Assembly: GCA_947568835.1 (NCBI GenBank)
Contig: OX387611.1
Span: forward strand, 6,514,001 to 6,578,000
DNA: 64,000 nt
From: Protonemura montana
Lineage: Eukaryota; Arthropoda; Insecta; Plecoptera; Nemouridae
Reading direction: 5' to 3'
Shown here: in pieces, positions 2,526 through 49,900 of the stretch
Position numbering within the stretch: position 1 is the stretch's first letter
Layout of the letters: each line of letters begins with the position of its first letter
Translations under genes and position numbers: made by a program
Notes under the pieces: model-generated
What the model was told of the DNA's origin: nothing
Databases searched by the model: none
Seen by the model: the letters and a program-made list of their open reading frames with translations, nothing else

Positions 2526-5500
2526 ATGGGTCAAACTGACAGCAAATGGGCCGACGTATCTCTTATCAACGAACCATTAGCAATTCCAGGCAAGTTTATT
2601 TAATGTGTTTTTTAATCACATCTTACAAGTGATCAGACTGTTTAAAGCTTGATTTTTGACGGTAATTGTTATGCCTATTCTATCTTGTTATGTACCTATA
2701 TATAGTTATTTCACAGACATAAAATGCACTTGATAAATCATATAAACAAATAATAAATGCACGTAAACTTAACTTACGCTGCTCAGATTATCTGTCCCCC
2801 CGAAAAAATTATTTTCGTCCAATATCAATGCTTGCTTTTCAGACAACGGCGCTGTGCTGGGCTTTGGGCAGACCGTGGTAGCTGAGAACGGTGCTCTTGC
2901 ATTGCTCGATGAAACAGTCTTGCAAGTTTCCTCGTACTGCGGTCACCACGTCTTCGTCTGCGGTAAGTTTATCTGCCACTCTTTACTATGCACATCGCTG
3001 AAGCCAAAACCTGTTGAGCCGTTTTGGCTAGACTGTGTACCGGTCATTTTTATTACGTATTTACTGTCATTCACCTGTGCTATTAACTTATAACAAAGTC
3101 GGGCATTTTAAAATTATGTGCTACCTTTTGTTACATGTCTAAAATCTGTTTAGGTTGATTTTGTTTCTCGTTCAATGCAGATAGTATATTTTTTTGCCGC
3201 ACATTAATCGTGGGCACCAAGAATTAGAGCCAATATCAAACAACCAAGGGACATTACGTTTGATTTCATTTGGTCTTGTAACAAATAAAATACAATTCTA
3301 ATCTTTACTTGAATCAAATTTCTTAACTTAAGGTCAGTTATGCAAAGTCCAGTTAAAATGATAACTCATCTCTTGGTCACAGCCAAACAGATTCTTTTAA
3401 TTGCATCGCAAACTTCCGTTTCTAGTCTATCAGAACATTGTAAAACTGGCCCCGAGACAGACATAGATAAAATCAAGAACTAAACCTAGCTTAGACCAAA
3501 CCCTAGAGCTTACAATGTTTTTCGAACCGGGCGTAAATCGCGATTCCTAATGTGCCGTTGTCTTTGTCAGCTTCTGGTCGCACTTACTCTGTGGGTGACA
3601 ACTTCTGCGGACAACTCGGGCTTGGCACGATTGGTGACCCCGTCAGCTCAGCCACGCAGATCACAGGTAAGAAAATGCAAAAAAAAAAAAAAAAAAAAAA
3701 AAGAACACTTGAGTAACAAATAAATTTGTAAAATCTGATTTAAATTGCAAACGCTTGCAATCTATCTTTCTATGCATTGCGCATGTCTGTAGTATTTTGT
3801 GTTTTGATATGAGTTTCATTAGATTATTATTTTTTATACGTTCCAGATTGTCTTTCTAAAACAGCAGAACAAAACAGGACGACATGGCCAAAAAATTCCA
3901 GACCACACTGCAACTATAGCAAAGATTTTTCTTTATTTTTGTTGTCATAAATTCGATCCGCGAACGTTTGTTGCAGCTTTGGAGCCTTTCAACGAGCCGA
4001 TCGTAATGTCTGCATGCGGAGACAAGCATACGCTCCTTCTCTCTGCTCGCGGCTCCGTCTTTGCTTGCGGAGACAATAAAGACGGCCAGCTCAGTCTTGC
4101 CAACATGAACAGCATTCACTCGCCTGTACCAATATTCTGTCCGCCACGAGTGAAGCAGGTGGCAGCTGGGTACTCTCATTCCATTGCCCTCACAGGTAAG
4201 ATTTCCACTTAATAAATCCAAAAAAGTGCCGGGCACCGCTTAGCCTCGTCCCTTTTGACACACTGTGTTGGCTGCTTCTGTCCAACAGCACCAAGGACCG
4301 GCCACCGCTTAGCCATGTCCCTTTTACACACTGTGTTGGCTGCTCCTGTTCAACAGCACCAAGGACCGGCCACCACTTAGCCTTGTCCCTTTGACACACT
4401 GTGTTGGCTACTCCTGTCCAACAGCACCAAGGACTGGCCACCGCTTAGCCTTGTCACTTTGACACACTGTGTTGGCTGCTCCTGTCCAACAGCACCAAGG
4501 ACTGGCCACCGCTTAGCCTTGTCCCTTTGACACTCTGTGTTGGCTGCTCCTGTGGCACTGGTCTATCGCCTGTCAGTGAATGAGAAGGCGATGATGAAGC
4601 TAACCCAGCATAGCAACTCCACGCATGATTGTGGAAAGCTAACCGGTGTCCTATGCTTAGAACGCGGCGATGTCTGGGTCTGGGGAAGCAACAAATGGGG
4701 AGAACTTGGCCTCGGCGATGACAACAAAAGAATCGTCGCAGAGCAACTACGTTTCGTCGCTGGACCCGTCAAGTTCATCGCTGCTGGTTACTTGCAATCA
4801 GCATTCATTACGGGTTAGCTTAACCTCAATTTTTTAATTTTTAATTATTAGGTATATCTAGATGTTAGTTTTTTAAGTTTTAGCTGAGTTAATCTCCTAA
4901 CTTACAACATCTGAATTCAAATAATTCATAAGTGCACAAGTTGCATAAGTTTAGAAAATATTAACTTTATTTTAGTTTATAGTTACTCACAGTGATAAAG
5001 ATCAACAACGTAATCTCATTTTTAATTTCTGCAGCGAATTAAAAAATGGATATTTTTAGCGCGCGGTGCCCTGTACAAATGCGGGCGTAATGAAAAGGGA
5101 GAACTCGGGGTCCCGGGATTTAAAGGCAATAAGTCGATGGTGCCTCAGTTGGTAGACCTGCCTGTCCCAGTCATCGCAGTGGCCATCGGAGAGGAACATT
5201 CACTTGCTCTCACAGGTAAGAAACGAAACAATATAAAGTTTCAACGTCAAATCGGTGTTACTCGAGAAAGTGGCATAGCGTCACTGAAATCGGAGTGACT
5301 GTGAGTTTTCACGGCCTTTTGATTCTTCTCCTTGGAGATCCATCATTCTCATCGATTGCACTAAAGTGCTATCAAAAAAACACCATGTCCAAGTAGTTTC
5401 TGCGACAGGTAGAGATCGAGGTTTGAGTCCTCGGCTGGGCACTAATTTTTGAGAGATTCTTTGTGTTTAGAAGGCTTTTCGAACAGAAATTAGCGTAGCC

Positions 5501-16239: not shown

Positions 16240-17676
16240 TCAACTCTCAAGACATGGCTTTCCAAACGTTTCAATACATGCAGTCCATGCTGTTGTCCAG
16301 CTCAAGGCATGGCTTGCCAAACAAAGCTTGCAGTCCATACTGTTGTCCAGCTCAAGACATGGCTTGCCAAACAAAGCTTGCAGCCCATGCTGTTGTCCAG
16401 CTCAAGACATGGCTTGCCAAACAAAGCTTGCAGCCCATGCTGTTGTCCAGCTCAAGACATGGCTTTCCAAACGTTTCAATGCTTGCAGTCCATGCTGTTG
16501 TCCAGCTCAAGACATGGCTTGCCAAACAAAGCTTGCAGTCCATGCTGTTGTCCAGCTCAAGACATGGCTTGCAAAACATAGCTTGCAGCCCATGCTGTTG
16601 TCCAGCTCAAGACATGGCTTGCCAAACGTTTCAAAGCTAGCAGCCCATGCTGTTATCCAGCTCAAGGCATAGTTTGCCACACAAAGCTTGCAGCTCATGC
16701 TGTTGTCCAGCTCAAGACATGGCTTGTCAAACAAAGCTTGCAGTCCATGCTGTTGTCCAGCTCAAGACATGGCTTGCCAAACAAAGCTTGCAGCTCATGC
16801 TGTTGTCCAGCTCAAGACATGGCTTGCCAAACAAAGCTTGCAGTCCATGCTGTTGTCCAGCTCAAGACATGGCTTTCCAAACGTTTCAATACTTGCAGTC
16901 CATGCTGTTGTCCAGCTCAAGACATGGCTTGCCAAACAAAGCTTGCAGTCCATGCTGTTGTCCAGCTCAAGACATGGCTTGCAAAACATAGCTTGCAGCC
17001 CATGCTGTTGTCCAGCTCAACACATCTTGCCAAACGTTTCAAAGCTAGCAGCCCATGCTGTTATCCAGCTCAAGGCATAGTTTGCCAAACAAAGCTTGCA
17101 GTCCATGCTGTTGTCCAGCTCAAGACATGGCTTGCCAAACAAAGCTTGCAGTCCATGCTGTTGTCCAGCTCAAGGCATAGCTTGCCACACAAAGCTTGCA
17201 GCTCATGCTGTTGTCCAGCTCAAGACATGGCTTGTCAAACAAAGCTTGCAGTCCATGCTGTTGTCCAGCTCAAGACATGGCTTGCCAAACAAAGCTTGCA
17301 GCTCATGCTGTTGTCCAGCTCAAGACATGGCTTGCCAAACAAAGCTTGCAGTCCATGCTGTTGTCCAGCTCAAGACATGGCTTTCCAAACGTTCCAAAGC
17401 TTGCAGTCTATGCTGTTGTCCAGCTCAAGACATGGCTTGCCAAACAAAGCTTGCAGCTCATGCTGTTGTCCAGCTCAAGACATGGCTTGCCAAACAAAGC
17501 TTGCAGCTCATGCTGTTGTCCAGCTCAAGACATGGCTTGCCAAACAAAGCTTGCAGTCCATGCTGTTGTCCAGCTCAAGACATGGCTTGCCAAACAAAGC
17601 TTGCAGTCCATGCTGTTGTCCAGCTCAAGACATGGCTTGCCAAACAAAGCTTGCAGTCCATGCTGTTGTCCAGCTA
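16240..17676. repeat. 50-bp minisatellite, about 29 copies, with higher-order structure
   Basis: The unit contains AAAGCTTGCAGTCCATGCTG and TTGTCCAGCTCAAGACATGG. Variant units (CCAAACGTTTCAA, GCAAAACATAGC, GTTATCCAGC) recur in the same order about 420 bp apart (16530-16680 and 16950-17090), so blocks were duplicated. Fifty is not a multiple of three and the unit lacks stops, so + frames stay open for up to 322 codons. These frames are not genes. Confidence 0.95.
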
Positions 17677-19612: not shown

Positions 19613-19964
19613 TTTTCGGTAATATTTCATTAATTGATTTCTGTGGACGCAGGTTAAGTAGTGAGTTTCCATCGATTTCGTTCTTCACTATAAATGCTAT
19701 GATTAGAGCTTCAATACTAGGAAAAAGAAAGACTAGAACAGTGACATAAGACATACGTAAGATATCAAACTTTTCGACAAATTGCTACCATTCTGTTTTG
19801 TTGGCATGCCATTTGTAAAACGCAAGAGCAAGACCCTGATTTGTAAATGACTTAGAAAATAGGAAGCCTTAGCCGCACTTTATTTAGCGCTCTCGTTTGC
19901 TCAAAGAATCCATTGATTTTACTATATACTCGCGAAGAACTAATAATTTAGAATGTCATACTCA

Positions 19965-20432
19965 GAGGCGACGGCGAGTGTCCGCTTATTTGCGTGGAGC
20001 GAAACAAGCACCCTGTCACGGAATGTCCATCACAGAGGCGACGGCGAGTGTCCGCTTCTTTGCGTGGAGCAAAACAAGCACCCTGTCACGGAATGTCCAG
20101 CACAGAGGCGACGGCGAGTGTCCGCTCCTTTGCGTGGAGCGAAACAAGCACCCTGTCACGGAATGTCCAGCACAGAGGCGACAGCGAGTGTCCACTCCTT
20201 TGCATGGAGCGAAACAAGCACCCTGTCACGGAATGTCCAGCACAGAGGCGACGGCGAGTGTCCGCTCCTTTGCGTGGAGCGAAACAAGCACCCTGTCACG
20301 GAATGACCAGCACAGAAGCGACGGTGAGTGTCCGCTCCTTTGCGTGGAGCGAAACAAGCACCCTGTCACGGAATATCCAGCACAGAGGCGACGGCGAGTG
20401 TCCGCTCCTTTGCGTGGAGCGAAACGCGCGGG
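19965..20432. repeat. 70-bp minisatellite, about 6.7 copies
   Basis: The unit contains GAGGCGACGGCGAGTGTCCG, TTGCGTGGAGCGAAACAAGC and ACCCTGTCACGGAATGTCC. The same family is inverted at 48535-49418, with one isolated fragment at 28741-28772. Long open frames in all three + phases follow from the absence of stops in the unit. Confidence 0.95.
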
Positions 20433-20925: not shown

Positions 20926-21765
20926 AGATAGCCCGTTTTGTGGAGAACGAAGCCCAAGGACGCAAACGGATATTGATTTCAAAATTGAGTAATTTTAACT
21001 AAGAAATCAGCTTTGAAAATATTGATTTTTGATTTCTCTCCATCAATCTGACTCAAATGGCAGAAAATTACCGTAAGCCCGTATTTTTCTGCTCTATGCC
21101 ATCGTTACCGTGGTATCATTTCCCAAGGAAATTATGATTATCCATTTATGAATGTCCATTATAATAAGTCCATGTCCAAACATGTAAGACGGTGTACCTG
21201 TTTATAGATCTTACCTACTTGACCTGTTTTGATCGTGGAATATGTGACGTCACTTGTCGGGTAGGCGTGGCTAGGTCGACGACTTGCGATGGTGTCTGAG
21301 TGACTCATTCGGGATTTCACACTCGATTCCTGTTTATAAGTTAGAACAAAAAAATGATGATGAGTAACGGAGGATTTTCTTTGTGTTGTATAAGGTTTTG
21401 TAGCTATTAGTACTGATCTATGTTTAACGACGCACTGTTTTTCCATAGATTTTCTGGCTGTGACGTTGTAGCTAGAAAGCTTATTACAATACGATGTAGA
21501 TTAAGGATTTAGTAATCCTAAGAACAAAATAAACCATGTATGTTCAGAACAACATACATGAGAAAGTAAATATCTTTTCGAAAAAAAAACACCTGGTATG
21601 ATAAAACTTAATTTTTTATCTAAAATATACTACCCGATTATTATCATTCTTACCGTATAGGTAAAGCCATAATATCTCAGGAAAGTTTGGTATGTTTCCC
21701 GGCTTTTTCACTCGAGTTTTGTGACTTCCGTCTCCAAGAGATACTCAAATATCTGGAAAGCGAAG
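20926..21765. other. Unassigned spacer
   Basis: No gene is recognised. A palindromic TGACGTCA (CRE-like) occurs at about 21245, within GTGACGTCACTTGTCGGG. The rest is AT-rich. Confidence 0.35.
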
Positions 21766-22715
21766 GATTCAGTCAGCTGATCTCAAATAACCTGGATAGA
21801 GCATAGGATCCAGTCAGCTGATCTCAAATAACCTGGATAGAACATAGGATCCAGTCAGCTGATCTCAAATAACCTGGATAGAGCATAGGATCCAGTCAGC
21901 TGATCTCAAATAACCTGGATAGAGCATAGGATCCAGTCAGCTGATCTCAAATAACCTGGATAGAGCGTAGGATCCAGCCAGCTGATCTCAAATAACCTGG
22001 ATAGAGCATAGGATCCAGCCAGCTGATCTCAAATAACCTGGATAGAGCATAGGATCCAGTCAGCTGATCTCAAATAACCTGGATAGAGCATAAAATCCAG
22101 CCAGCTGATCTCAAATAACCTGGATAGAGCATAGGATCCAGCCAGCTGATCTCAAATAACCTGGATAAAGCATAGGATACAGCCAGCTGATCTCAAATAA
22201 CCTGGATAGAGCATAGGATCCAGCCAGCTGATCTCAAATAACCTGGATAGAGCATAGGATCCAGCCAGCTGATCTCAAATAACCTGGATAGAGCATAGGA
22301 TCCAGCCAGCTGATCTCAAATAACCTGGATAAAGCATAGGATACAGCCAGCTGATCTCAAATAACCTGGATAGAGCATAGGATCCAGCCAGCTGATCTCA
22401 AATAACCTGGATAAAGCATAGGATACAGCCAGCTGATCTCAAATAACCTGGATAGAGCATAGGATCCAGCCAGCTGATCTCAAATAACCTGGATAAAGCA
22501 TAGGATCCAGCCAACTGATCTCAAATAACCTGGATAGAGCATAGGATCCAGCCAACTGATCTCAAATAACCTGGATAGAGCATAGGATCCAGTCAGCTGA
22601 TCTCAAATAACCTGGATAGAGCATAGGATCCAGCCAGCTAATCTCAAATAACCTGGAAAGAGCATAGGATCCAGCCAACTGATCTCACAAAGCCTGGATA
22701 GAGCAAAGGATCCAG
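21766..22715. repeat. 41-bp minisatellite, about 23 copies
   Basis: The unit is GATCTCAAATAACCTGGATA plus GAGCATAGGATCCAGCCAGCT, with C/T and A/G variants. The last units are worn. The same family and orientation occur at 35193-36345. Confidence 0.95.
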
Positions 22716-23305
22716 CCTGTTGGTAAAAACTGAAGATAGGCAATCAAATTTTTGGTTTAAATCTACGCAATATTTTAGTAAAAAAGTAAAAAAATAAAAA
22801 AAAACTGCATGGATCCCTCCAATTATTATTTTTTTGAGAATTGTTTTTATTTTCCGTCTTATTCCAATCACTATTAGAATATTACACAATTACTTTGACT
22901 GATACATAAAAAATATCTGACAAGTCACGAACTTATAAATTTTTTTTTATATAAATATAAAAAATCACCAGATCAACCTCCGGCATTTCTAAAGAAAAAT
23001 CAATCAAAGGAAGCCACGCATGTCTCAGACCGCTGGAGAACCCCAGCTACGTATATAAAGCTACGTCACGAATCAGGATTCCTGGCAACATCCTTGACTG
23101 GGTCAGTCAACCAGGATCAGACCAGTTTCGTTACTGCTGAGTAATAGCATTACCTGAATCTCTGTTGGCCGTCTCCACAACTCCGAGCTTATTCCTAACC
23201 ATCATACATGTAAATGTTGATATCACCATGGTAACAGCCGTTGGAAACCTGAAATAACCGTCTGTGATTGGCTGATAATTTTTAAACTTCGGTTCTAAAT
23301 TATCA
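22716..23305. other. AT-rich spacer
   Basis: No coding evidence. It includes poly-A/T tracts and, from 23010, slightly GC-richer sequence without a recognised feature. Confidence 0.35.
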
Positions 23306-23877
23306 TTTGGGTAAGGTTGGTTTTTGGATGGGAGACCATCATACACATGACCAGTTCTGTTCGGGAGAGAGGTTGGAGGGATGAACGTTAAGCAACACTG
23401 CGCTGAGTCAGGTATTTGATGAGTGACCATCATACACATGACCAGTTCTGTTCGGGAGAGAGGTTGGAGGGATGAAAGTTAAGCAACACTTCGCTGAGTC
23501 AGGTATTGGATGGGTGACCATCATACACATGACCAGTTCTGTTCGGGAGAGAGGTTGGAGGGATGCACGTTAAGCAACACTGCGCTGAGTCAGGTATTGG
23601 ATGGGTGACAATCATCCACATGACCAGTTCTGTTCGGGAGAGAGGTTAGAGGGATGAACGTTAAGCAACACTGCGCTGAGTCAGGTATTGGATGGGTGAC
23701 CATCATACACATGACCAGTTCTGTTCGGGAGAGAGGTTAGAGGGATGAACGTTAAGCAACACTGCGCTGAGTCTGGTATTGGATGGTTGACCATCATACA
23801 CATGACCAGTTCTGTTCGGGAGAGAGGCTGGAGGGATGAAAGTTAGTACAGCAACTTCACTCACCTTGCTCTTTATG
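23306..23877 (+). mobile_element. 5S-derived SINE with expanded internal 91-bp units (about 5)
   Basis: Successive units run from GTGACCATCATACACATGAC through GTTCGGGAGAGAGG to GTTAAGCAACACTGCGCTGA and back to GGATGGGTGACC. Each carries 5S box A- and box C-like sequence. The canonical head is missing and the body is cut off after TTCACTCACCTTGCTC. Confidence 0.88.
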
Positions 23878-24219: not shown

Positions 24220-24262
24220 TGAAATTTTTCCCGACGTTTCGTAACGTATGCATCCTCATTTA
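24220..24262 (-). repeat. Penelope-like/MITE terminal motif
   Basis: Reverse complement ...CGTTACGAAACGTCGGGAAA, the same end as copies at 6.1, 37.2 and 38.3 kb, immediately before the tRNA-like array. Confidence 0.5.
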
Positions 24263-24269
24263 TTCATTC

Positions 24270-25230
24270 GGGACATCCTGAATGCAAGGCAGACATGGCG
24301 CTCTCACTACCAGGATAGCCGGCCATCAGAATCTTACCTGAGACCTACCGAATGCAAGGCAGACATGGCGCTCTCACTACCAGGATAGCCGGCCACCAGG
24401 ATCAAACCTGGGACCTCCCGAATGCAAGACAGACATAGCGCTCTCACTACCAGGATAGCCGGCCACCAGGATCGAACCTGGGACCTCCTGAATGCAAGGC
24501 AGACATGGAACTCTCACTATCAGGATAGCCGGCCACCAGGATCAAACCTGGGACCTCTCGAATGCAAGGCAGACATGGCGCTCTCACTAACAGGATAGCC
24601 GGCCACCAGGATCAAACCTGGGACCTCCCGAATGCAAGGCAGACATGGCGCTATTACTACCAGGATAGCCGGCCACCAGGATCGAACCTGGGACCTCCTG
24701 AATGCAAGGCAGACATGGAACTCTCACTATCAGGATAGCCGGCCACCAGGATCAAACCTGGGACCTCTCGAATGCAAGGCAGACATGGCGCTCTCACTAC
24801 CAGGATAGCCGGCCACCAGAATCTTACCTGAGACCTACCGAATGCAAGGCAGACATGGCGCTTTCACTACCAGGATAGCCGGCCACCAGGATCAAACCTG
24901 GGACCTCCCGAATGCAAGACAGACATAGCGCTCTCACTACCAGGATAGCCGGCCACCAGGATCGAACCTGGGACCTCCTGAATGCAAGGCAGACATGGAA
25001 CTCTCACTATCAGGATAGCCGGCCACCAGGATCAAACCTGGGACCTCTCGAATGCAAGGCAGACATGGCGCTCTCACTACCAGGATAGCCGGCCACCAGG
25101 ATCAAACCTGGGACCTCCCGAATGCAAGGCAGACATGGCGCTATTACTACCAGGATAGCCGGCCACCAGGATCGAACCTGTGACCTCCCAAAGGCAAGGC
25201 AGACATGGCGCTCTCACTACCAAAATAGCC
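24270..25230 (-). repeat. Tandem array of about 13-14 tRNA-like 70-bp units
   Basis: On the minus strand each unit reads GCCGGCTATCCTGGTAGTGA, GAGCGCCATG, CTTGCATTCGGGAGGTCCCA, GGTTCGATCCTGGTGGCCGGC. A tRNA-like A box/D arm, a B box (GGTTCGATCC) in a T-arm hairpin (CCAGG...CCTGG) and GCCGGC ends are visible. The D/T segments resemble tRNA-Ala. The period is close to one tRNA, so there is no spacer, and the palindromic GCCGGC serves both ends. Variants recur every 490 bp (seven units; for example AATCTTACC at 24330 and 24820). The T loop is one base short, so the units are probably not functional tRNAs. Confidence 0.85.
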
Positions 25231-25467
25231 AACACATAAATCCGCCCACACATTGTAATAGAACAATCTCATAAATATTAACGAATTCAGTCAATTAAAA
25301 ATGCATTAAATTTCACACATAATGCAAGTGCAACCGACATACACGTCGCGTAACAAGTGTTTACGCAATGCACTTCTAGTTGCATCGATGCAGTCACGGT
25401 GCACTTGATTTCTGAGTCAAGGTGGCCGGCGTAGTGTTTTATTGGTGGCAAATGCTAATTTAAAAGC

Positions 25468-26167
25468 TAGGCGAGTTTGGAAGTTGAGCAATACTGCGCA
25501 GGGTCAAGTATTGGATGGGTGACCACCGAACTGTTTGGCGTGTTGGAAACACCGGTTTTTGTGAGATCACCGAAGTTAAGCAACACTGCGCTGAGTCAGG
25601 TATTTTTTGGGTGACCATCATACACATTGGCCAGTTCTGTCCGGAAGAGAGGTTGGAGGGATGAAAGTTAAGCAACACTGCGCTGAGTCAGGTATTAGAT
25701 GGGTGACCATCATACACACGACCAGTTCTGTTCGGGAGAGAGGTTGGAGGAATGAAAGTTAAGCAACACTGCGCTGGGTCAGGTATTGTATGGTTGACCA
25801 TCATACACATGACCAGTTCTATTCGGGAGAGAGGTTGGAGGAATGAAAGTTAAGCAACACTGTGCTGAGTCAGGTATTGTATGGTTGACCATCATACACA
25901 CGACTAGTTCTGTTCGGAAGAGAGGTTGGAGGGATGAAAGTTAGTACAGCAACTTCACTCGCCTTGCTTATCAACCTCTTGACAGTATGGATTTGTGAAG
26001 GAATCCTGTTGTCCTTCGCAAGGGACTCCAATTGGTCTTCGACAGGAGTGGGCTATACCTGCTGGCACCGGATTTCCCTTTCACTACTTTTCTATGCTAG
26101 TTTCATCTTTCTCTATTCATTCACCGACGCCATGAAACCAGTGGTAAATATCCCGTTGTCAAAACCA
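25468..26167 (+). mobile_element. 5S-derived SINE with several internal units
   Basis: Two 5S-like heads (25468 and about 25535), three to four 91-bp linker units, body and tail ending TTGTCAAAACCA. The body is shortened relative to 10293-10745. Confidence 0.88.
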
Positions 26168-28074: not shown

Positions 28075-28735
28075 GTTATGTTTAACGACGCTCTGTTTCG
28101 AAAATGGGCCCTGTGTTTCTGGTTTAACGGCGTCGGTGAATGAGTGGAACATAATCAGGATGATGATGAACCTAGCCTAGAAGGGAGGAGGGGAAACCCG
28201 GTGCCGGCACGTAGCCTATACTCATTTATAAAATGCACCGAAGGGACCACCACTCAGAAATATGATTCCTCCACAAATCCATACTGTCGAGAGGTTGATA
28301 AGCAAGGCGAGTGAAGTTGCTGTACTTACTTTCATCCCTCTAACCTCTCTCCCAAACAGAACTGGTCATGTGTATGATGGTCACCCATCCAATACCTGAC
28401 TCAGCGCAGTGTTGCTTAACTTTCATCCCTCCAACCTCTCTCCCGAACAGAACTGGTCCTGTGTATGATGGTCACCCAACCAATACCTGACTCAGCGCAG
28501 TGTTGCTTAACTTTCATCCCTCCAACCTCTCTCCCGAACAGAACTGGTCATGTGTATGATGGTCACCCATCCAATACCTGTCCCAGCGCAGTGTTGCTTA
28601 AAATCAGTGATCTCACAAGGACCGGTGTTTCCAACACGCCAAACCGTTCTGTGGTCACCTATCCAATAACTAACCCAGTGCATTGTTGCTTAACTTCAGT
28701 GATGACATAAAAACTGGTGCTTGTACCACACCAAA
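28075..28735 (-). mobile_element. 5S-derived SINE, minus orientation, multi-unit
   Basis: Reads tail to head on the + strand: GTTTAACGACGCTCTGTTT, the body (CCACAAATCCATACTGTCGA), three linker/box C units (GGTCACCCATCCAATACCTG), then two heads with AACACGCCAAACCGTTC. Orientation is opposite to the neighbour at 27388. Confidence 0.9.
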
Positions 28736-31564: not shown

Positions 31565-32268
31565 ATGGTCTTTGTTCGATTCATGTCCATCTTGTCAGGT
31601 GTCAACGTTTCAACCCGTCTCGACTCGACCATCTAAGCTGTGTTGCCAACTCACGTACCTACCCCAACCCCTTCCCATCAGGAGGGCCTTTGTTCAATTC
31701 ATGTCCATCTTGTCAGGTGTCAACATTTCAACCCGTCTCGACTCGACCATCTAAGCTGTGTTGCCAACTCACGTACCTACTCCCACCCCTTCCCATCAGG
31801 AGGGTCTTTGTTCGATTCATGTCCATCTTGTCAGGTGTCAACATTTCAACCCGTCTCGACTCGACCATCTAAGCTGTGTTGCCAACTCACGTACCTACCC
31901 CCACCCCTTCCCATCAGGAGGGTCTTTGTTCGATTCATGTCCATCTTGTCAGGTGTCAACATTTCAACCCGTCTCGACTCGACCATCTAAGCTGTGTTGC
32001 CAACTCACGTACCTACCCTCACCCCTTCCCATCAGGAGGGTCTTTGTTCGATTCATGTCCATCTTGTCAGGTGTCAACATTTCAACCCGTCTCGACTCGA
32101 CCATCTAAGCTGTGTTGCCAACTCACGTACCTACCCTCACCCCTTCCCATCAGGAGGGTCTTTGTTCGATTCATATCCATCTTGTCAGGTGTCAACATTT
32201 CAACCCGTCTCGACTCGACCATCTAAGCTGTGTTGCCAACTTACATACCTACCCCCACCCCTTACCAT
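31565..32268. repeat. 118-bp minisatellite, about 6 copies
   Basis: The unit contains TTCATGTCCATCTTGTCAGG, ACCCGTCTCGACTCGACCAT and TAAGCTGTGTTGCCAACTCA, ending CCCCTTCCCATCAGGAGG. Units are nearly identical, suggesting recent expansion. A diverged, inverted solo unit lies at 42280-42375. Confidence 0.95.
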
Positions 32269-33554: not shown

Positions 33555-34275
33555 ATGTCTGCTCCTGTCTAACAGCATCAAGGACCGGCCACCGCTTAGC
33601 TTTGTCCCTTTGACACACTGTGTTGGCTACTCCTGTCCAACAGCACCAAGGGCCGGCCACCACTTAGCCTTGTCCTTATGACACACTGTGTTGGCTGCTC
33701 CTGTCCAACAGCACCAAGGACCGGCCACCGCTTAGTCTTGTCTCTTTGACACACTGTGTTGGCTACTTCTGTCCAACAGCACCAAGGACCGGCCACCGCT
33801 TAGCCTTGTCCCTTTGACACACTGTGTTGGCTGCTCCTGTCCAACAGCACCAAGGACCGGCCACCGCTTAGTCTTGTCTCTTTGACACACTGTGTTGGCT
33901 GCTCCTGTCCAACAGCACCAAGGACCAGCCACCGCTTAGCCTTGTCCCTTTGACTCACTGTGTTGGCTGCTCCTGTCCAACAGCACCAAGGGCCGGCCAC
34001 CACTTAGCCTTGTCCTTATGACACACTGTGTTGGCTGCTCCTGTCCAACAGCACCAAGGACCGGCCACCGCTTAGTCTTGTCTCTTTGACACACTGTGTT
34101 GGCTACTTCTGTCCAACAGCACCAAGGACCGGCCACCGCTTAGCCTTGTCCCTTTGACACACTGTGTTGGCTGCTCCTGTCCAACAGCACCAAGGACCGG
34201 CCACCGCTTAGCCTTGTCACTTTGACACACTGTGTTGGGTACTCCTGTCCAACAGCACCAAGGTCCGGCCACTTT
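33555..34275. repeat. 68-bp minisatellite, about 10.6 copies
   Basis: Same monomer and orientation as in RCC1-gene intron 4 (GACACACTGTGTTGGCTGCT). Variants (CTTATGACACAC; GTCTTGTCTCTTTG) recur 340 bp apart, a five-unit higher-order period. Confidence 0.95.
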
Positions 34276-35192: not shown

Positions 35193-36345
35193 TCTGATCT
35201 CAAATAACTTGGATAGAGCATAGGATCCAGCCAGCTGATCTCAAATAACCTGGATAGAGCATAGGATCCAGCCAGCTGATCTCAAATAACCTGGATAGAG
35301 CATAGGATCCAGCCAGCTGATCTCAAATAACCTGGGTAGAGCATAGGATCCAGCCAGCTGATCTCAAATAACCTGGATAGAGCATAGGATCCAGCCAGCT
35401 GATCTCAAATAACCTGGATAAAGCATAGGATCCAGCCAGCTGATCTCAAATAACCTGGATAGAGCATAGGATCCAGCCAGCTGATCTCAAATAACCTGGG
35501 TAGAGCATAGGATCCAGCCAGCTGATCTCAAATTACCTAGGTAGAGCATAGGATCCAGCCAGCTGATCTCAAATTACCTGGATAGAGCATAGGATCTAGC
35601 CAGCTGATCTCAAATAACCTGGATAGAGCATAGGATCCAGCCAGCTGATCTCAAATAACCTGGATAGAGCATAGGATCCAGCCAGCTGATCTCAAATTAC
35701 CTGGGCAGAGCATAGGATCCAGCCAGCTGATCTCAAATAACCTGGATAGAGCATAGGATCCAGCCAGCTGATCTCAAATTACCTGGGCAGAGCATAGGAT
35801 CCAGCCAGCTGATCTCAAATTACCTAGGTAGAGCATAGGATCCAGCCAGCTGATCTCAAATTACCTGGATAGAGCATAGGATCTAGCCAGCTGATCTCAA
35901 ATAACCTGGATAGAGCATAGGATCCAGCCAGCTGATCTCAAATAACCTGGATAGAGCATAGGATCCAGCCAGCTGATCTCAAATTACCTGGGCAGAGCAT
36001 AGGATCCAGCCAGCTGATCTCAAATAACCTGGATAGAGCATAGGATCCAGCCAGCTGATCTCAAATTACCTGGGCAGAGCATAGGATCCAGCCAGCTGAT
36101 CTCAAATTACCTGGGCAGAGCATAGGATCCAGCCAGCTGATCTCAAATTACCTGGGCAGAGCATAGGATCCAGCCAGCTGATCTCAAATAACTTGGATAG
36201 AGCATAGGATCCAGCCAGCTGATCTCAAATTACCTGGGCAGAGCATAGGATCCAGCCAGCTGATCTCAAATTACCTGGGCAGAGCATAGGATCCAGCCAG
36301 CTGATCTCAAATTACCTGGGCAGAGCATAGGATCCAGCCAGCTGA
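35193..36345. repeat. 41-bp minisatellite, about 28 copies
   Basis: Same unit as 21766-22715, with a GGGCAGAGCATAGG variant dominating the right half. Blocks recur in order, showing segmental duplication within the array. Confidence 0.95.
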
Positions 36346-37068
36346 TCAAAATTGAAGTCAGGTAAACCATAGTTGGCAAAAAAAATGAGTCCCTAAATTC
36401 AAGGTCCCTGCGATTAAAATGCTAATTTTACAGTTTTTGAAACACGTTTTTAACCAATTATAATTATTTCACTGGTGAAAACTGTGCAAACCACGAACAC
36501 TACTGATATCACGGGCTATTTAAGAGAACTCGGCATCAGAGACTCTCAAGATGGCGGTCTTGGCTTTAAAATCTCTCTATGGCAGCTGCTATCCGGGTAA
36601 TTTGATATCAGTGTGTTTCCCAATTCAATTCGGAGCACATTTATTTGTTTTATTTTATCTAAGATCAAACCACCGGGTCCCTCTTGTTCCCCTTTGCTCA
36701 AAAAACTGCCTTATCTCAAACTGAACTTCCTTATTATTATATATTTTTTTTAAATATTGGAAGCCACATGTCTCTTTGTGGATACCTAAAATATGTATTC
36801 TGAAATGCCCTCCGCTGTTCAAGATGCAGTTATAAAAGCTCCTAATGCGACAGTCTAACTCATGAACACCTTTGTCCCTTCCTATGCCACCCATGCCCTC
36901 CTACATATACAAGGAGAACAAACAATCAAGTACTCACTAAGTACAATCTATTAGAACGATAAGAAAACCTGGCCTTGGGCTCTTAAGACCTAAACGAAGT
37001 CGAATAAAGTACCGAGTTCTACGCAGTAACTACTTCAATTATCAGAGAAGTAAGTGGAGATAAAGGAA
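36346..37068. other. Spacer upstream of DUOXA with candidate promoter
   Basis: Apart from the 36517-36596 candidate first exon, no gene or repeat is recognised. Sequence is AT-rich from 36600. Confidence 0.35.
36517..36596 (+). promoter_or_regulatory. Candidate DUOXA core promoter and first exon
   Basis: TATTTAAG (36517) precedes an Inr-like ATCAGAG (A at 36538). ATG at 36551 opens 15 codons plus one base to a donor CCGG|GTAATT (36597). Splicing to 37914 restores the DUOXA frame and would give an N-terminal extension of about 24 residues (MAVLALKSLYGSCYP, then VACGDSEHT). Known family members usually begin at the internal MRGW-type start, so this exon may be mainly 5' UTR in practice. Confidence 0.35.
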
Positions 37069-37939: not shown

Positions 37940-40900
37940 ATGCGTGGCTGGTTCGACGCATTCCGCAGCGATGGCGGACCCACGCTGTACAGTTTCAGCA
38001 ATCGCACGGCTGTCAGTGCTGATGTACACCTGGTGCTCCTGGTGCTTGTTTTCTGCACCCTGCTGCTCGCGTTCCTCGTCATCTTCCCGGGCGTGCGAAA
38101 AGAGGTGAGATAAAATTTTATATTTCATATATTAATATTACGCCAATGTGTTCGAGTTCTTATTTCAGAAAATACATAATACATTAGTTTTTTAGTTATT
38201 GATCCTGATGATTTTGTTTAGATGCATTTAGGATGCTTGAACTAGGTCATTGTTATAATTTTATGTGGTTCTTTTGTTATTGGAAAAATGTCAGGACTGC
38301 TCAAACCTCTGAAGAAGTAACTAGTATATGTTGCGAAACGTCGGGAAATTTAGTAGCCCTTTACTTAGCATTCAAAACCCAGTTCAAATAGTTTTTCTTA
38401 AAACTAGTGCTAAGGCTAAATCAAGTAGACATGAGTCTAAAAACCATCATAGGTGAGATGACGTTATAAAATCCGATTTTTGATATTTAAACGCCTGGTA
38501 AATTTTATCATTAGGAACAATTAAAACATAAAAAAAAAAAAGTGCCCAACAGGGAACTCGAACCCCGATCTCCATCTGTCTCGAGTGTTTCTCTAATTAT
38601 TTAATTAGTTTCTATGCAAAAAAAAAAAACTTCAGATATTGACGAAAATAATTCCAAGGAATAGCCCTTGGCTCAGGTTGACTTGCATTTTGAAATCGCA
38701 GCCTACAGGAAAGTCTACATGTAAGGTACAAATTTGGTTTTTCTAACTTGAGCCATATTAACCAAGAGCTGAATTCGGGAACTCCGTTTAAACTTCAAAA
38801 CACTGCTTTTAGCTACTTCTCACTGCAATTTTGATTAAAATTCCTTTTAAAAACATTACTATTACTGCAAATGTTGATAACTTTAAAATTTGACTAAAAA
38901 AAGTGACATTTTTGTGTAAACCTTCCTTTAATGAAGAACATCCTTTAATGTTTCTTTACCTCGTTTCTAAGAAGCAATAAATCTATATTTTTTGTGGTTA
39001 TAAGGTAACTACACTATTTTTGAGGGATTTTAATCCTAAAAAAGAGCTTTGCCAGGCGTTACAGCAGAGTTCGCTCTTCCATATTCAGATTAAATCAAGG
39101 AATTAATATTTGTCAAACTCTTAAAAGAATTGTCAGTATGTCATTCATATCCAGCTTTGGATTAAAGAATTATCATCCTTCAACGCGATAAAGCGCGTTC
39201 ACAAAGATAACAAAGCACAAAGAGGCTTGTGAGAATTTTCCAGTGCGTTACTGTGTAACATCACCGAAGTTAAGCAACACTGCGCTGGGTCAGGTATTAG
39301 ATGGGTGACCATCATACACATGACCAGTTCTGTTCGGGAGAGAGGTTGGAGGGATGAAAGTAACTTCACTCGCCTTGCTTATCAACCTCTGAACAGCATG
39401 GATTTGTGAAGGAATCCTGCTGTTCGCGTTGTACCGTCCTTCGGAAGGGACTTTAAGCCTTGTGTTCTTCGACAGGAGTAGGCTACGTGCCGGGACCGGG
39501 TCTCCCCTCCTCCCTTCTAGTCTAGGTTAGGTTAATCATCATCCTCATCATCATCATCATCCACTCATTCACCGACGCCATTAGACCAGCGCCGCATGGC
39601 CAGATGTCAAAACAGTGCGTCGATAAACACCAATAATCAATCAACTGTGAAGATGTTTCTGTGGTCTAGCCACACTCACCGAACCGTGAAAGGGGCAAGT
39701 CTGGCAATGAAGGGGAAAGAGGAGGGGAAAGAGTTCACTCTCGCTAGCAACTCTCGATCTTCATGCAACGTTGCCAGCTGTGAGACGCCGGCCGGAAATG
39801 TGTCAGTGGAACGAATCTTCATCGCTTTAATGTTGCAACATTGCCTGGATGCTGAGATGATAAGGGGATATATTGTACTTATAATAGAAAAATCTCATGT
39901 AGATTATTATTTAATTATTATCATTGTGTTCAAATATGCATTTAAAATAAAATCTGACGTATTTTTTCTTTTTATGATCCGATCATAACTTTTCTATTTA
40001 TATTTGCTTTAAGAATGGCTAAAATATGAATTCTCGTGGCGGGATGAAAACGGGCTGTGACGTCAGAACTCCTGTTATGACGAAAGTTTTCGTATGAGAT
40101 TCAAACGCAAACGTTTTAAACAGGTATACTTTATTCAAAATTGGATTTAGAAGAAAATAAAAAAATACGTGTTCATTATTTTCACACAAAATAAATCAAA
40201 ATTAAAGAGATTTCGATATTCATCTGTTAATTTCAAAGTTCTGAGCATTTTTTGACCTTTTAGCGTCTAATTCTCAAGCTAATTGATAAGTGAGGTTTAA
40301 CGACGCACTGTTTTGTCATTGGGTCTTGTGGCACTGGTGTAATGGCGGCGGTGAATAAGTGGGTGATGACAATGAACCTAGTCTAACATAAAAAAGAGAA
40401 TGGGGAATCCGGTGCCGGCACGTAGCCTTCTCTTGTTGAGGAGCACCAAAAGGACCACTGGTGAACGTCCCTTCGGAAGGACGGTACAACGCGAACAACA
40501 GGATTCCTCCACAAATCCATGCTGTCGAGAGGTTGGTAAGCAAGGCGTGTGAAGTTGCTGTATTAACTTTCATCCCTCCAACCTCTCTCCCGAACAGAAC
40601 TGGTTATGTGTATGATGGTCACCCATCCAATACCTGACCCAGCGCTGTGTTACTTAACTTCCATCCCTCCAGCCTCTCTCCCGAACAGAACTGGTCATGC
40701 TATGCCCACTACCGGACCACTGATACAGCCATAGGCGTGTTGGAAACATCGGTTCTCGTGAGATCACCAAAGTTAAGCAGCACTGTCCTGGGTCAGGTAT
40801 TGGATGGGTGACCATCAGACACATGACCAGTATTGTTCGGGATAGAGGTTGGAAGGATGACAGTTAAGCAATACTGCGCTGGGTCAGGTATTGGATGGGT

Positions 40901-43900
40901 GACCATCATACACATGACCAGTTCTGTTCGGGAGAGAGGTTGGAGGGCTGAAAGTTAAGCAACACTGCGTTGGGTCAGGTTTAAATGGGTGACCATCAAA
41001 CACATGACCAGTATTGTTCGGGATAGAGGTTGGAAGGATGACAGTTAAGCAATACTGCGCTGGGTCAGGTATTGGATGGGTGACCATCATACACATGACC
41101 AGTTCTGTTCGGGAGAGAGGTTAAAGGGATGAAAGTTAAGCAACACTGCGTTGGGTCAGGTATTGGATAGGAGACCACCGTACGGTTTAGTGTGTTTAAA
41201 ACACTGGTCTTTACGAGATCAATGAAGTTAAGCAACATTGCGCTTGGCCTAAAAAATGAAGTTATAAGAATTTATAAGAAAAAAACTTAATAGACGAGAC
41301 AAAACCTATCTATATATCTTTCTTTCTCTCTGGTGCAACTATCCAGTGCAATCAAGTGCAATTCACATAAAATGTTCCATCCAATTCACAGTCACTGCCA
41401 TTCGATTACTGCAAGAAGTAATCGATTCGATTTGCTTACAACATCGGCTAAACTATCGTCGTGAAGGCTGAATAGCTTTTGGCAAACCACGTTTCATACA
41501 AAAGCTAAATAGTAAAGTCTATCCCAAAACCACATTTATATCAATTTTTAAAACGGGTCTTTGTTCACGCATTATAGAATAGGGAAATCTCTTCAAATTT
41601 GAAACTATTTTTTTTTGTGAGTAAATAACGAACATGTATTTTTTTATTTTCTTCTAAATCCATTATTGAATAAAATATACCTGTTTAAAATGTTTGCGTT
41701 TGAATCTCGTACGAAAACGAGGGTCGCCATTTTTTATGACATGAAGTGAATTCTGACGTCAGTATGACGTCAAAAAACAGAAGCGAACGCAAAGGAAACA
41801 ACAAAATGACGTCAGAACTACCTGTAGTTAATCACAGCCCGTTTTCATCCCACCACGAGAATTCATATTTTAGCCATTCTTAAAACAAATATAAATAGAA
41901 AAGTTATGATCGGATAATAAAAAGAAAAAATACATCAGATTTTATTTTAAATTCGTATTTGAACACAATGATAATAATTAAATAATAATCTAAATAAGAT
42001 TTCCCTATTGTAAAGTAGAAAAAGTGGTAGAAGATGAAGTATGTTAAAAGTATGAAGTATAAGATATGAAGTTTGAAGTAGACTAGATGTATGTTTAGTT
42101 GTATGGAAATTATTTTTAATTTTTAAGTTGCTCCATTTGGCTCATTGTGTCTTTTCGTGGAAAATAAAGGAATTGAAATCGAAATCAAAATACTTTCCTC
42201 TGAAACATGACAGTTGTTAGATTGATTTAATTGGCTGCGTTGTCGAAGGTTTAGCATTGCAATTATAATTCTGGTGTTTACCTAATGGGAAGGGGTGAGA
42301 GATGTGGGTTGTCAACACAGCTTAAATTCTCGATTGGAAGTGAGGCGAAATTTTGATACCTGACGAAAGGAACACAAATTAAATTAACACTCTCCTGATT
42401 GTCACTTACCAAGATAAGTAACTAAACGGTTGAATGTTTAAAAAACACCGGTTCTCGTGAGATCACCGAAGTTAAGCAACACTACGCTGAGTCAGGTATT
42501 GGATGGGTGACCATCATACACATGACCAGTTCTGTTTGGGAGAGAGGTTGGAGGGATGAAAGTAAAGCAACACTGCGCTGAGTCAGGTATTGGATGGGTG
42601 ACCATCATACACATGACCAGTTCTGTTCGGGAGAGAGGTTGGAGAGATGAAAGTTAAGAAACACTACGCTGAGTCAGGTATTGGATGGGTGACCATCATA
42701 CACATGAACAGTTCTGTTCGGGAGAGAGGTTGGAGGGATGAAAGTTAAGCAACACTACGCTGAGTCAGGTATTGGATGGGTGACCATCATACACATGACC
42801 AGTTCTGTTCGGGAGAGAGGTTGGAGGGATGAAAGTTAGTACAGCAACTTCACTCGCCTTGCTTATCAACCTCTCGACAGCATGAATTTGTGAAGGAATC
42901 CTGTTGTTCGCGTTGTTCCGTCCTTCGGAAGGGCCTTTAAACCGATGGTCCCCTTTGACAGAAGTCGGCAATGTGGCTTTACGATTTTTTCAAACTTCTC
43001 GTATAAGTTTTTTTAGGACTAATTTTACCCACCCATTAACCGTCTCATTAAGACCAGTGCCGCATGGTCTACGGCCAATACAGTGTGTCGTAAAACCCTA
43101 CTTAATAAAACAATTTAAAAATCTTAATACACTTGCGTTTTTGGGATACACCATACAGGTTCTCGAGTGTTGGAATCTTCTTTCTAAGTTCTTTCACTCG
43201 CAAAATGATTTACATGAACTTGACCCGAAATTCCTTTAACATTAAATCTGCACAAAGGCAATTTCTCAGCAACGACATTGCGAATGAGCACGTGGACATC
43301 ATTTCGCAATTGGTGCCTCAGTAATCCGCCAAACTGAATGCCCGTCCGTTTTGCAACTCTCCTGGTTCTTTGTGCGTTGGAAATACAGAGTTGTAAGCTG
43401 GGATGCTGCGGTCGTCACGTTATTCGCATTTTGTGAACGATTTGACGTGTTAGAAACATTGGTCCTCGTAAGATCAACGAGTTAAGCAACACTGCGCATG
43501 GTTAGGTATTGGATGAGTGACCATCGATCGGTTTAGAGTGTTAGGAACACCAGTCCTCGAAAGATCTCTGAAGTTAAGCAATTCTGCACTAGGTCAAGTA
43601 TTGAATGGGTGACCACCGAATGATTTGGCGTATTTGGAACATTGGTCCTCGTAAGATCAACGGAGTAAAGCAACACTGCGCATGGTTAGGCATTGGATGG
43701 GTGACCACCAAACGGTTTTGCGCGCTAGAAACACCAGTCCTCGTAAGATTTCTGAAGTTAAGCAATTCTGCACTGGGTCAAGTATTGGATGGGTGACCAC
43801 CGAACGGTTCGGCTCTCGTGAGATCACTGAAGTTAAGCAACACTACGCATGGTTAGGCATTGGATGGATGACCATCGAACGGTTAAGCGTGTTAGAAACA

Positions 43901-46900: not shown

Positions 46901-49900
46901 GATGATTGAGATGATTGAGTTGTCTCCATTGAGGACAAGGCTTGCATATGATTGTAACGTCTATTCCCAACAAGGCAGGTCAACCATGACTATAAAAAGG
47001 ATAATTAACGCAAGTTATTTTACCAAGCCGCCATTTAGATTGAGTGGGATGCAGAATATTAGAATTAGAATGTTTTACCGTAGCGCTAATTTGTTAAACT
47101 GTCTTCGCGAGAAATAAATGATGCTTCCGTTGTTTGGAATGTTGAACATGTTTTTTTTTATCATTTCAAGCAGATTGCTCGTATTTGAGACTGATTACAA
47201 TCGTTGAGATCGGCATAATACAAGAGTAATTGAACGTAGAAAGGTTTCAAATGAGAGCCATCTGCGAGAAATATCAAAATTAAATTTCTTAACACTAAAA
47301 AAAATGGTGACCCCACCTAGAAGTACACTTCATTTCTGTCACGTTTAAGTAGGCATTTCCTCAAAGACAGAAAGTAATAACGTCACTATAGAATCAGAGT
47401 GACTGTGAGTATTCACAGCCTTTTGGTTCTACTCCTTGGAGAACTGTCATTCTCATCAAATGCACTAGAATTGTCTCAAAAAGCCAGTGTCCAAGTAGCT
47501 CAATGGTTCAGAGCAACACCCGCGATAGCTGGAGATCGGGGTTCGAGTCCCCGTTTGGACATCAATTTTTGAGACGGTTATAGTGTTGTTAATAATAAAA
47601 CACACTGGCTTTAGCATTGTTGACAAATAATTAATTTGACGGTATTATTGATCTAAGGGGAAGTTTTCAGGGCCACACTTAATGATTAACAGATCGTTAA
47701 ACATAAAAATAAATCTTCTGATTGGCTGTTGCTAAGCAAAGAAGAAATTAACGGACTGTAAGCTTCTTAACGGACTACTTAACAACCGAATTTAATATAG
47801 TTTTATAAAAAAAAATCCTTGTCCAGACATTTTACCAACCAGGTGACAAAGTGGATGACTCTGTCATTGTCATTGTTCACGATTTTCAAAACAGTTTAAA
47901 AAATTCCCGCTATAAACGTCATTTAAACAAATAAATGGCAATGTTTTCAAGGGCGAAAACAGTCTAATTCAGTTTTTTCCGTCTAGCTTCCTTTCCATCC
48001 TTCGCTTGCTGGTTTCAGCTTCCTAGTGCAAACAACAAAAAAACTGAAAACCGTGCAACAACCGTAAATCTTACCGACCATTCTGTACATGTGGATATTT
48101 AATTAGCATCTTATTGTAGAGTTCGTAGAAGCTAAGAACTCGTCCATACGAGTCGCCTCCCCCCTCCCCCCCCGCCCCTCTGAGGGGATCCCTTATCCCA
48201 CCAAGCGAAAACTAGAATATGTGTGCCCGGATAGTTTAGTCGGTAGAGCACCAGACCGGCAATTGGGAGGTTCCTGGTTGGTTTCCTGGTTCGGTTGCTC
48301 ATTTTCCAGTCTAGCTTCTTTTCCAGTTACTAAAAAGTTAGGTATAAACCCCTGATTCAAACCTAAAAGCACATGAGAAAGCGTTAAAATAGGTAATTCA
48401 ATTCATAATAAAGAGCAATGTCCTGCAGTTTCTTGTCACCTCGTTGAAGGTCATGAGTACCATCCTCCCCCGTTATAATGGACAGCATCTGTGTTATAAA
48501 ACTAAGATGTCTAAGCCACAGCCAGTTTCACTCCACGCTAAAAAGCGGACACTCGCCGTCGCCTCTGTGCTGGACATTTCGTGACAGGGTGCTTGTTTCA
48601 CTCCACGCTAAAAAGCGGACACTCGCCGTCGCCTCTGTGCTGTACATTCCGTGACAGGGTGCTTGTTTCGCTCCACGCAAAGGAGCGGACACTCGCCGTC
48701 GCCTCTGTGCTGTACATTCCGTGACAGGGTGCTTGTTTCGCTCCACGCAAAGGAGCGGACACTCGCCGTCGCCTCTGTGCTGGACATTTCGTGACAGGGT
48801 GCTTGTTTCACTCCACGCTAAAAAGCGGACACTCGCCGTCGCCTCTGTGCTGTACATTCCGTGACAGGGTGCTTGTTTCGCTCCACGCAAAGGAGCGGAC
48901 ACTCGCCGTCGCCTCTGTGCTGTACATTCCGTGACAGGGTGCTTGTTTCGCTCCACGCAAAGGAGCGGACACTCGCCGTCGCCTCTGTGCTGGACATTCC
49001 GTGACAGGGCGCTTGTTTCGCTCCACGCAAAGAAGCGGACACTCGCCGTCGCCTCTGTGCTGGACATTCCATGACAGGGCGCTTGTTTCGCTCCACGTAA
49101 AGGAGCGGACACTCGCCGTCGCCTCTGTGCTGGACATTCCGTGACAGGGTGCTTGTTTCGCTCCACGCAAAGAAGCGGACACTCGCCGTCGCCTCTGTGC
49201 TGGACATTCCATGACAGGGCGCTTGTTTCGCTCCACGTAAAGGAGCGGACACTCGCCGTCGCCTCTGTGCTGGACATTTCATGACAGGGCGCTTGTTTCG
49301 CTCCACGCAAAGGAGTGGACACTCGCCGTCGCCTCTGTGCTGGACATTCCGTGACAGGGTGCTTGTTTCGCTCCACGCAAAGGAGTGGACACTCGCCATC
49401 ACCTCTGTGCTGGACATTTTAAGAGCATATTCTGAACTTTTTTACAGTGGTTAAGTGGCGGGAAGCGAATGAAGCTGCTGCTTAGGTCTCGTCTCTCAGG
49501 TCTTCTTCAAAATTCTCTAATCTAATTTGTCTTTTTTCTTTATTTTGCAGAAATTCACGACTTTTACCAGCGTCACGCTGAGTCTTTTCGTCGGCTCGGC
49601 TATTCTCGGTAAGCATTTGTCTGATTACTGTCAGCAAAAACCCACACTCACGGCACTTACTGCACTTATTCTGGCACGTTGATGCATTTTCTTTTGTCTC
49701 GGGGTTTTCCCCATGAGGTTCTCGAGGCATTGTTTTGGATCATCATTGAAAAAATAGCAAATTCTTGTGTCTTACGTAAAATAAATTGCCTGTTAGGGCA
49801 ATGAACTGCAACAAGTCTTCTTAATACCCGTAGTAACGTAAGACAGAAGAATTGAGAAACTCTGTCGGGCGATCTCATGGCATCTCCATGGCTACCAAAC

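Follow-up and report, generated by a model that had tools for sequence, protein, structure and literature searches.

A 64,000-bp stretch of Protonemura montana DNA (hereafter the window) carries on its minus strand a tandem array of 70-bp units that resemble tRNA over part of their length. Judging from sequence comparison across the assembly, this array probably, though with ample room for doubt, belongs to a dispersed and recently spread satellite with a tRNA-like 70-bp monomer, which numbers about 90 short arrays and spread as concatemers from a single master. The family looks like a young selfish satellite, not a set of working tRNA genes. The way in which one small RNA gene may turn into a satellite can be put to a clean test here: the monomer is the tRNA-like part alone, almost all junctions show the sequence proposed to have joined the units, and the family is so young that the majority of arrays have kept a single consensus.

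TRF reports the window array at 24270-25230 with a period of 70, 13.7 copies, 90% matches, 0% indels and a score of 1593, and nhmmer finds in it 14 head-to-tail 70-bp units (Table 1; the low-coordinate edge is ambiguous). The palindrome GCCGGC opens 13 of the 14 units, while the outermost one opens with GTTGGC instead. Both the head-to-tail arrangement and the GCCGGC junctions had been proposed in an earlier, sequence-only reading of the window, and both are borne out. With its head-to-tail, homogenised or higher-order copies the array belongs among satellites and minisatellites, and it has no match in the plasmid collection. Within it, the mean identity of units seven apart is 0.991 (5 unit pairs), the remaining offsets between 1 and 11 give 0.886-0.930, and 12 of 20,000 random unit orders did as well at any offset from 2 to 8; the seven-unit periodicity noted earlier is therefore real. 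The same reading had described two 490-bp blocks. A later block duplication at a 490-bp offset stands, but the full blocks do not, since what recurs seven units away is one 361-bp run. The seven-unit pattern is private to the window array: other arrays show offsets of 3, 5, 8, 11 or 12 units or none that is clear, several carry private block duplications, and no long multi-unit variant pattern common to different arrays was found. Local block duplication after the birth of the array would account for the pattern in the window.

Table 1. Location of features in the window, in window positions, with strand and basis.
Feature	Position	Strand	Basis
Tandem array of 70-bp tRNA-like units (14 nhmmer hits)	24257..25230	-	TRF, nhmmer, cyclic extension of family consensus
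Unit with top Rfam tRNA score, 24.2 bits, below gathering score	24458..24532	-	Rfam
Unit, Rfam tRNA 24.2 bits	24668..24742	-	Rfam
Unit, Rfam tRNA 24.2 bits	24948..25022	-	Rfam
Degenerate outermost unit, GTTGGC replacing GCCGGC	25164..25233	-	Unit listing
Block, first copy (seven-unit offset)	24820..25180	-	Best in-phase local self-match of the array
Block, second copy	24330..24690	-	Same in-phase local self-match; coordinates converted from reverse strand
91-bp 5S rRNA-derived arrays	23324-23845, 25573-25943, 28328-28735, 40769-41177, 42469-42838, 60535-60808, and others		Rfam 5S, 39-59 bits
tRNA-Ser-like module	47488-47563	+	
tRNA-Ser-like module	52670-52745	-	
tRNA-Ser-like module	58748-58824	-	
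68-bp satellite	4229-4553, 33559-34272, 56641-57545		
Further tandem family	1-461 and 54940-55382		TRF
Further tandem family	16246-17675		TRF
Further tandem family	19963-20425 and 48525-49418		TRF
Further tandem family	21764-22717 and 35194-36347		TRF
Further tandem family	31567-32268		TRF
Further tandem family	49824-50628		TRF
Further tandem family	51104-52193		TRF
Open frame, 145 aa	1430-1867	-	Weak Pfam match

The similarity to tRNA exceeds chance but is uneven, being strong in the T-arm/B-box half and weak elsewhere. The family consensus, GCCGGCTATCCTGGTAGTGAGAGCGCCATGTCTGCCTTGCATTCGGGAGGTCCCAGGTTCGATCCTGGTG in the tRNA sense (426 full units, 33 arrays), was compared with an HMM built from 35 distinct tRNA genes of the same genome and obtains 22.0 bits, where the best of 2,000 dinucleotide shuffles reaches 4.3; the gene set was drawn from 40 fetched of 62 Rfam matches, and, as only 63 of 23,590 candidates were scored, it may miss some tRNA types. 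The signal sits in positions 48-70, the T-arm and B box, where 0 of 1,000 shuffles did as well, and chance resemblance is rejected for this half. Positions 1-48 (acceptor, D and anticodon arms) do not match the tRNA-gene HMM; their global alignment to tRNAs is suggestive, with 24 of 1,000 shuffles doing equally well, and they come closest, as does the anticodon arm, to a tRNA-Ala-UGC, with the common stretch GTCTGC.TTGCAT. Each unit had been taken for about one whole tRNA with both A/D-arm and B-box/T-arm similarity: the 3' half is clearly tRNA, the head has no HMM match, and because this head is only weakly tRNA-like, a whole tRNA ancestor is not proven. Nor is the parent tRNA settled, since tRNA-Phe, tRNA-Cys and tRNA-Ala align nearly equally well over the whole unit (scores of 17.2, 16.9 and 16.7; shuffled maximum 13.8 of 300). 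The Rfam tRNA model places three window units, nearly identical to one another, at 24.2 bits (E 0.022 for 1.1 kb searched with 4,227 families). The best listed unit of one younger array reaches 19.8 bits (E 0.98 for 3 kb), so that neither score attains the gathering score of 29. ARAGORN called no tRNA in the 33 arrays scanned, the window array included. The tRNA likeness nevertheless did not sink to the level of shuffled sequence, and the above-shuffle score together with the tandem array supports the earlier view that a tRNA-like sequence has been amplified into a satellite.

The cloverleaf that had been predicted to close at every unit is not supported by the minimum-energy fold of one consensus unit, which is another structure (-32.6 kcal/mol versus -19.0 for the cloverleaf); because neighbours share each GCCGGC acceptor strand, adjacent cloverleaves are also mutually exclusive. 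One window unit folds better than most of its shuffles (z -2.7, 2 of 200 as good). If the array were at work, with Pol III-transcribed units that yield tRNAs or small RNAs, or with TFIIIC-bound boundaries in gene-rich regions, one might expect several features that are seen among the 524 full-length units: the B-box core GWTCRANNC is present in 84%, internal TTTT is absent from 99.6%, and T-arm/B-box positions vary somewhat less than the unit overall (0.018 versus 0.026 non-CpG substitutions per site; the selection of units biases the rates at positions 1-2 and 69-70). Stem-pair double changes likewise number 18 against 12.0 expected, with 9 still paired (16 pairs, 524 units; copies inherited by duplication not separated), but these may have been passed on by duplication, and the pair changes give no clear sign of kept RNA structure. 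Against a working array, moreover, the units decay, with CpG-type changes fastest, and the Rfam scores fall short of the tRNA family cut-off that a functional tRNA gene cluster would be expected to pass. Since the representative unit has no A-box consensus, no tRNA is called and the double changes stand at 18 versus 12.0, there appears to be little support for a kept RNA role, and we regard a working array as highly improbable.

A genome-wide search of 258.5 Mb (34 contigs) for the unit junction, allowing at most 3 mismatches, returned 640 + 685 = 1,325 matches in the two orientations, and a reversed-pattern control returned 0; the family is thus dispersed. We sampled the window array and 32 arrays from the best hits, 33 in all; a second list then supplied 16 further places, of which 15 are arrays and one is a solo copy. 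Choosing arrays among the best hits tilts this sample towards young ones. The sampled arrays hold 4 to 49 units. The first 33 are 0.3-3.5 kb long and some adjoin coding DNA, unlike the very long heterochromatic arrays of a classical satellite. An exact variant-specific pattern gave 77 matches (the complete list) that group into 36 places, 13 of them already among the first 33 arrays, and the recapture estimate of 33 x 36 / 13 comes to about 91 places (7 of the 36 not fetched). Ten of these 36 places lie on contigs C14, which holds the window and along which places are spread, and C15; the other 26 all lie within 4.4 Mb of a contig end, a limit chosen post hoc in zones that make up about 36% of nine long contigs, and, with places clustering, no p value is claimed.

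Units are as similar between arrays as within them: identity is 0.947 within and 0.942 between arrays (421 full-length, indel-free units; arrays with at least 4 such units). The array consensus equals the family consensus exactly in 23 of 31 arrays, and the other 8 differ only at positions 45, 46, 47 or 60. A looser choice of units gives all-pairs within-array identities from 0.707 (L017) to 0.972, with 0.83 in L014 and 0.865 in L010. Because within- and between-array identity are equal and 23 of 31 consensuses are the family's own, the arrays probably began homogeneous from one master and then decayed separately, although the variants at positions 45 and 46 that many arrays have in common could also stem from a source that was mixed and not a single pure master. 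Had scattered solo tRNA-like copies each expanded in place by slippage or unequal exchange, private fixed differences should mark the arrays, and they do not; a single solo copy turned up among 49 places examined, in a non-exhaustive search for such copies. That copy (L090) and the reality of local block duplication do speak for growth in place, which we nonetheless consider decidedly unlikely as the origin of the arrays.

Outside the arrays, most flanks are unique. In the 33 arrays, 2-5% of flank bases within 300 bp match another flank, as against 35-39% beyond 600 bp, and in a search of 317 kb of array-locus sequence 100-bp flanks matched elsewhere on the left in 5 of 48 places and on the right in 2 of 48; array edge positions are estimates, and two of the matching left flanks (L010 and L038) reflect edges misplaced by indels. 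Carriage by a whole transposon is rejected, as all-against-all comparison of the flanks of the 33 arrays finds nothing shared at the edges, and the flanks examined show no transposon around the unit. The body or tail that a SINE would share is likewise absent, with no common flank at the edges of the 33 arrays, and in the loci examined, with a non-exhaustive search of the genome for solo copies, no SINE containing the unit was met. There is no sign of target duplication in the 33 arrays: the longest stretch shared by paired flanks averages 4.45 against 4.44 in mispaired flanks, and the abutting test gives 3.85 against 3.66 (sd 0.18). Joined 100 + 100 bp flanks revealed no paralogous empty site (48 places, 317 kb searched; L010 and L038 set aside).

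The 3' ends of the arrays are biased. In 18 of 48 places the 3' end falls at the base of the T-arm hairpin, in unit positions 66-70 (binomial p 2e-9; the window array's own 3' end, one of the 18, is doubtful), and the best 5-base window of 3' ends was equalled in 0 of 5,000 simulations. The range from 60 to 18 holds the 3' ends of 26 of the first 33 arrays, and it held in 12 of 15 later places where 41% were expected (the sixteenth, L094, is cut by the locus end and was excluded). The 5' starts are scattered, with a weak excess at positions 45-55 (17 of 48; 118 of 5,000 simulations as good). The solo copy, L090:1446-1531, is 86 bp long and has the T-arm at either limit, beginning at its 5' base and stopping at its 3' base. 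A 5S-derived array begins about 5 bp away from this copy, and in L034 a 5S-derived array adjoins a tRNA-like one.

Reverse transcription is another process that could give clustered 3' ends and spread-out 5' ends; in this reading a LINE-type enzyme would copy a Pol III transcript, jump between templates through the complementary GCCGGC ends and leave fixed 3' and truncated 5' ends; retention of the B-box core in most units agrees with such an RNA intermediate. The arrays, however, lack target duplications, the 3' junctions listed carry no common 3' tail, and the 3' ends fall inside the tRNA-like unit instead of at its processed end, so that spread through RNA seems rather unlikely to us, if still the most credible of the rivals. 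In the reading we prefer, concatemers spread from one master, the ancestor would be a tRNA-like copy whose acceptor stem is the palindrome GCCGGC. Being palindromic, the two strands of such a stem are also a 6-bp direct repeat at both ends, and fusion of a 76-bp copy with identical six-letter ends would drop one of them and leave 70 bp. Slippage, circle formation or template switching may have joined the end repeats into the 70-bp head-to-tail unit with its shared acceptor strand. Concatemers from this one master, made as rolling-circle copies of a 70-bp circle or as template-jumping cDNA, would then have been captured at breaks in gene-rich DNA with no target duplication, with array 3' ends preferentially at the T-arm hairpin base, and each array would afterwards have mutated independently and been rearranged by local block duplication. 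A hint of the same seeding route comes from a second tRNA-like family of this genome, whose 52-bp units meet at a joint bearing GTCCAAG and GTTCGAG.

The surroundings of the arrays are repeat-poor in the first 300 bp (33 arrays), with a CpG value of 0.97 there against 0.74-0.76 beyond 600 bp, and some arrays lie within genes. A Pfam search of 18 peptides gave 9 matches at E 0.01 (6 of 10 and 3 of 8), one of which comes from an open frame of the window, whereas the other eight come from array flanks. Hist_deacetyl (L013), PDZ (L033), CFAP161 (L025) and DUF2464 (window), four of the nine, are below Pfam's own cut-off. A domain runs across the array only in L028, in an intron of a mitochondrial carrier (one domain spanning the joint, E 8e-28), in L037, in an intron of a protein kinase (E 3e-25), and in L013, in an intron of a histone deacetylase (Hist_deacetyl, E 7e-5, below the cut-off). 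In L032, a thyroglobulin/antistasin protein, the joint falls between the domains; peptides of L009, L011, L023 and L035 have no Pfam match, and for this reason the exon joins there are guesses. No coding exon was recognised beside the window array. The 145-aa open frame in the window, with a weak MVB12 match (E 0.004, below Pfam's cut-off), is possibly a host gene, and a mir-282 precursor (L021:5688-5782, 73 bits) lies about 2.3 kb from a tRNA-like array. This precursor and a COX1 that reads with genetic code 5 both suggest an arthropod genome.

Without the array, and with splice sites as read, the intron would be about 26 nt in L028 and about 42 nt in L013; between myosin exon pairs whose model positions are almost contiguous the gaps are 77, 78, 105, 180, 219, 231, 255, 318, 368 and 398 nt (10 pairs, gaps below 400; one further pair overlaps by 13 residues, so that its raw gap of 45 may in truth be about 84). 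In L028 and L013, either the array replaced intron sequence or it made the intron. Splice-site pairs at the edges of the 70-bp family have a mean joint score of 11.0, against 7.7 in unique control sequence (z 4.5, 30 arrays), and 11.7 against 9.3 with another control; the 68-bp family has z 3.1 (7 arrays), and the excess is absent from the 91-, 41-, 52- and 73-bp families (z 1.3, 0.3, -0.1 and -0.5). As only part of the arrays is shown to be intronic, no general intron targeting is claimed. It is a bolder idea, and an unlikely one, that a tRNA-like sequence may be mobile as a minimal concatemer-forming element, with the palindromic acceptor as its joining repeat and the T-arm hairpin setting its ends, and that such arrays may invade short introns, mostly replace them and carry the branch region. 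If both the T-arm end bias and intron replacement hold, a connection would emerge between Pol III genes, the birth of satellites and the growth of introns.

Short arrays amid other DNA abound in the window, where TRF finds more tandem families of 41-118-bp units. In the 5S-derived arrays the start falls at unit positions 91-6 in 19 of 23 and the end at 4-6 in 17 of 23, unlike the tRNA-like arrays and as if they had grown within a full-length 5S-like element. The 68-bp satellite has 974 exact matches genome-wide, of which the first 100 crowd part of C2 and C4 and also occur inside C5; its end phases are scattered (9 arrays). The tRNA-Ser-like module lies in a dispersed element between the inverted repeats CACTA...GTCTCAAAAA and TTTTTGAGAC...TAGTG; in some copies 52 bp of it are tandemly amplified, with arrays in L019, L029, L031, L037 and L039. 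The long contig C4 carries a full-length COX1 (5760925-5762262) and a partial one (5776811-5777755); the former scores the same as COX1 on the 15.9-kb contig C34, which points either to mitochondrial DNA recently copied into the nucleus or to an assembly error.

In the open literature searched we found no description of the 70-bp family. Introners, as arrays of this family are found that make up almost a whole intron, offer one likeness, yet the 70-bp arrays have neither conserved splice-bearing ends nor target duplication and also occur outside recognisable introns; the remnants beside them vary in sequence and length, and an introner identity is rejected. Insect 1.688-like euchromatic satellites form dispersed short arrays with local higher-order patterns in gene-rich DNA. 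The 70-bp family resembles them in dispersal and higher-order patterns, and differs in its tRNA-like origin and hairpin-biased 3' ends. Closer precedents are amphibian Pol III repeats and reptile SINE-derived satellites. The satellites sSat1-3 of scaled reptiles are short arrays at many loci that derive from a tRNA-related element including box B (PMC10702118), and the family described here shares with them the short dispersed arrays and the tRNA-related origin including box B. The sSat arrays have distinguishable leading and trailing monomers and units made of known SINE parts, such as a 67 nt head plus body in snakes (PMC10702118), whereas the 70-bp unit is tRNA-like only, with no SINE body or shared flank found. 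The same source lists the newt PolIII/TAN, Rana/polIII, Hy/polIII and Xenopus OAX families as tandem repeats with sequence held to be tRNA-like, and calls the tRNA origin of Hy/polIII questionable (PMC10702118). Units of these amphibian repeats are there given as about 200-360 nt or longer (PMC10702118), as against 70 bp here; beside both groups, the P. montana family is set apart by a minimal unit in which neighbours share their acceptor strands and around which no SINE was found.
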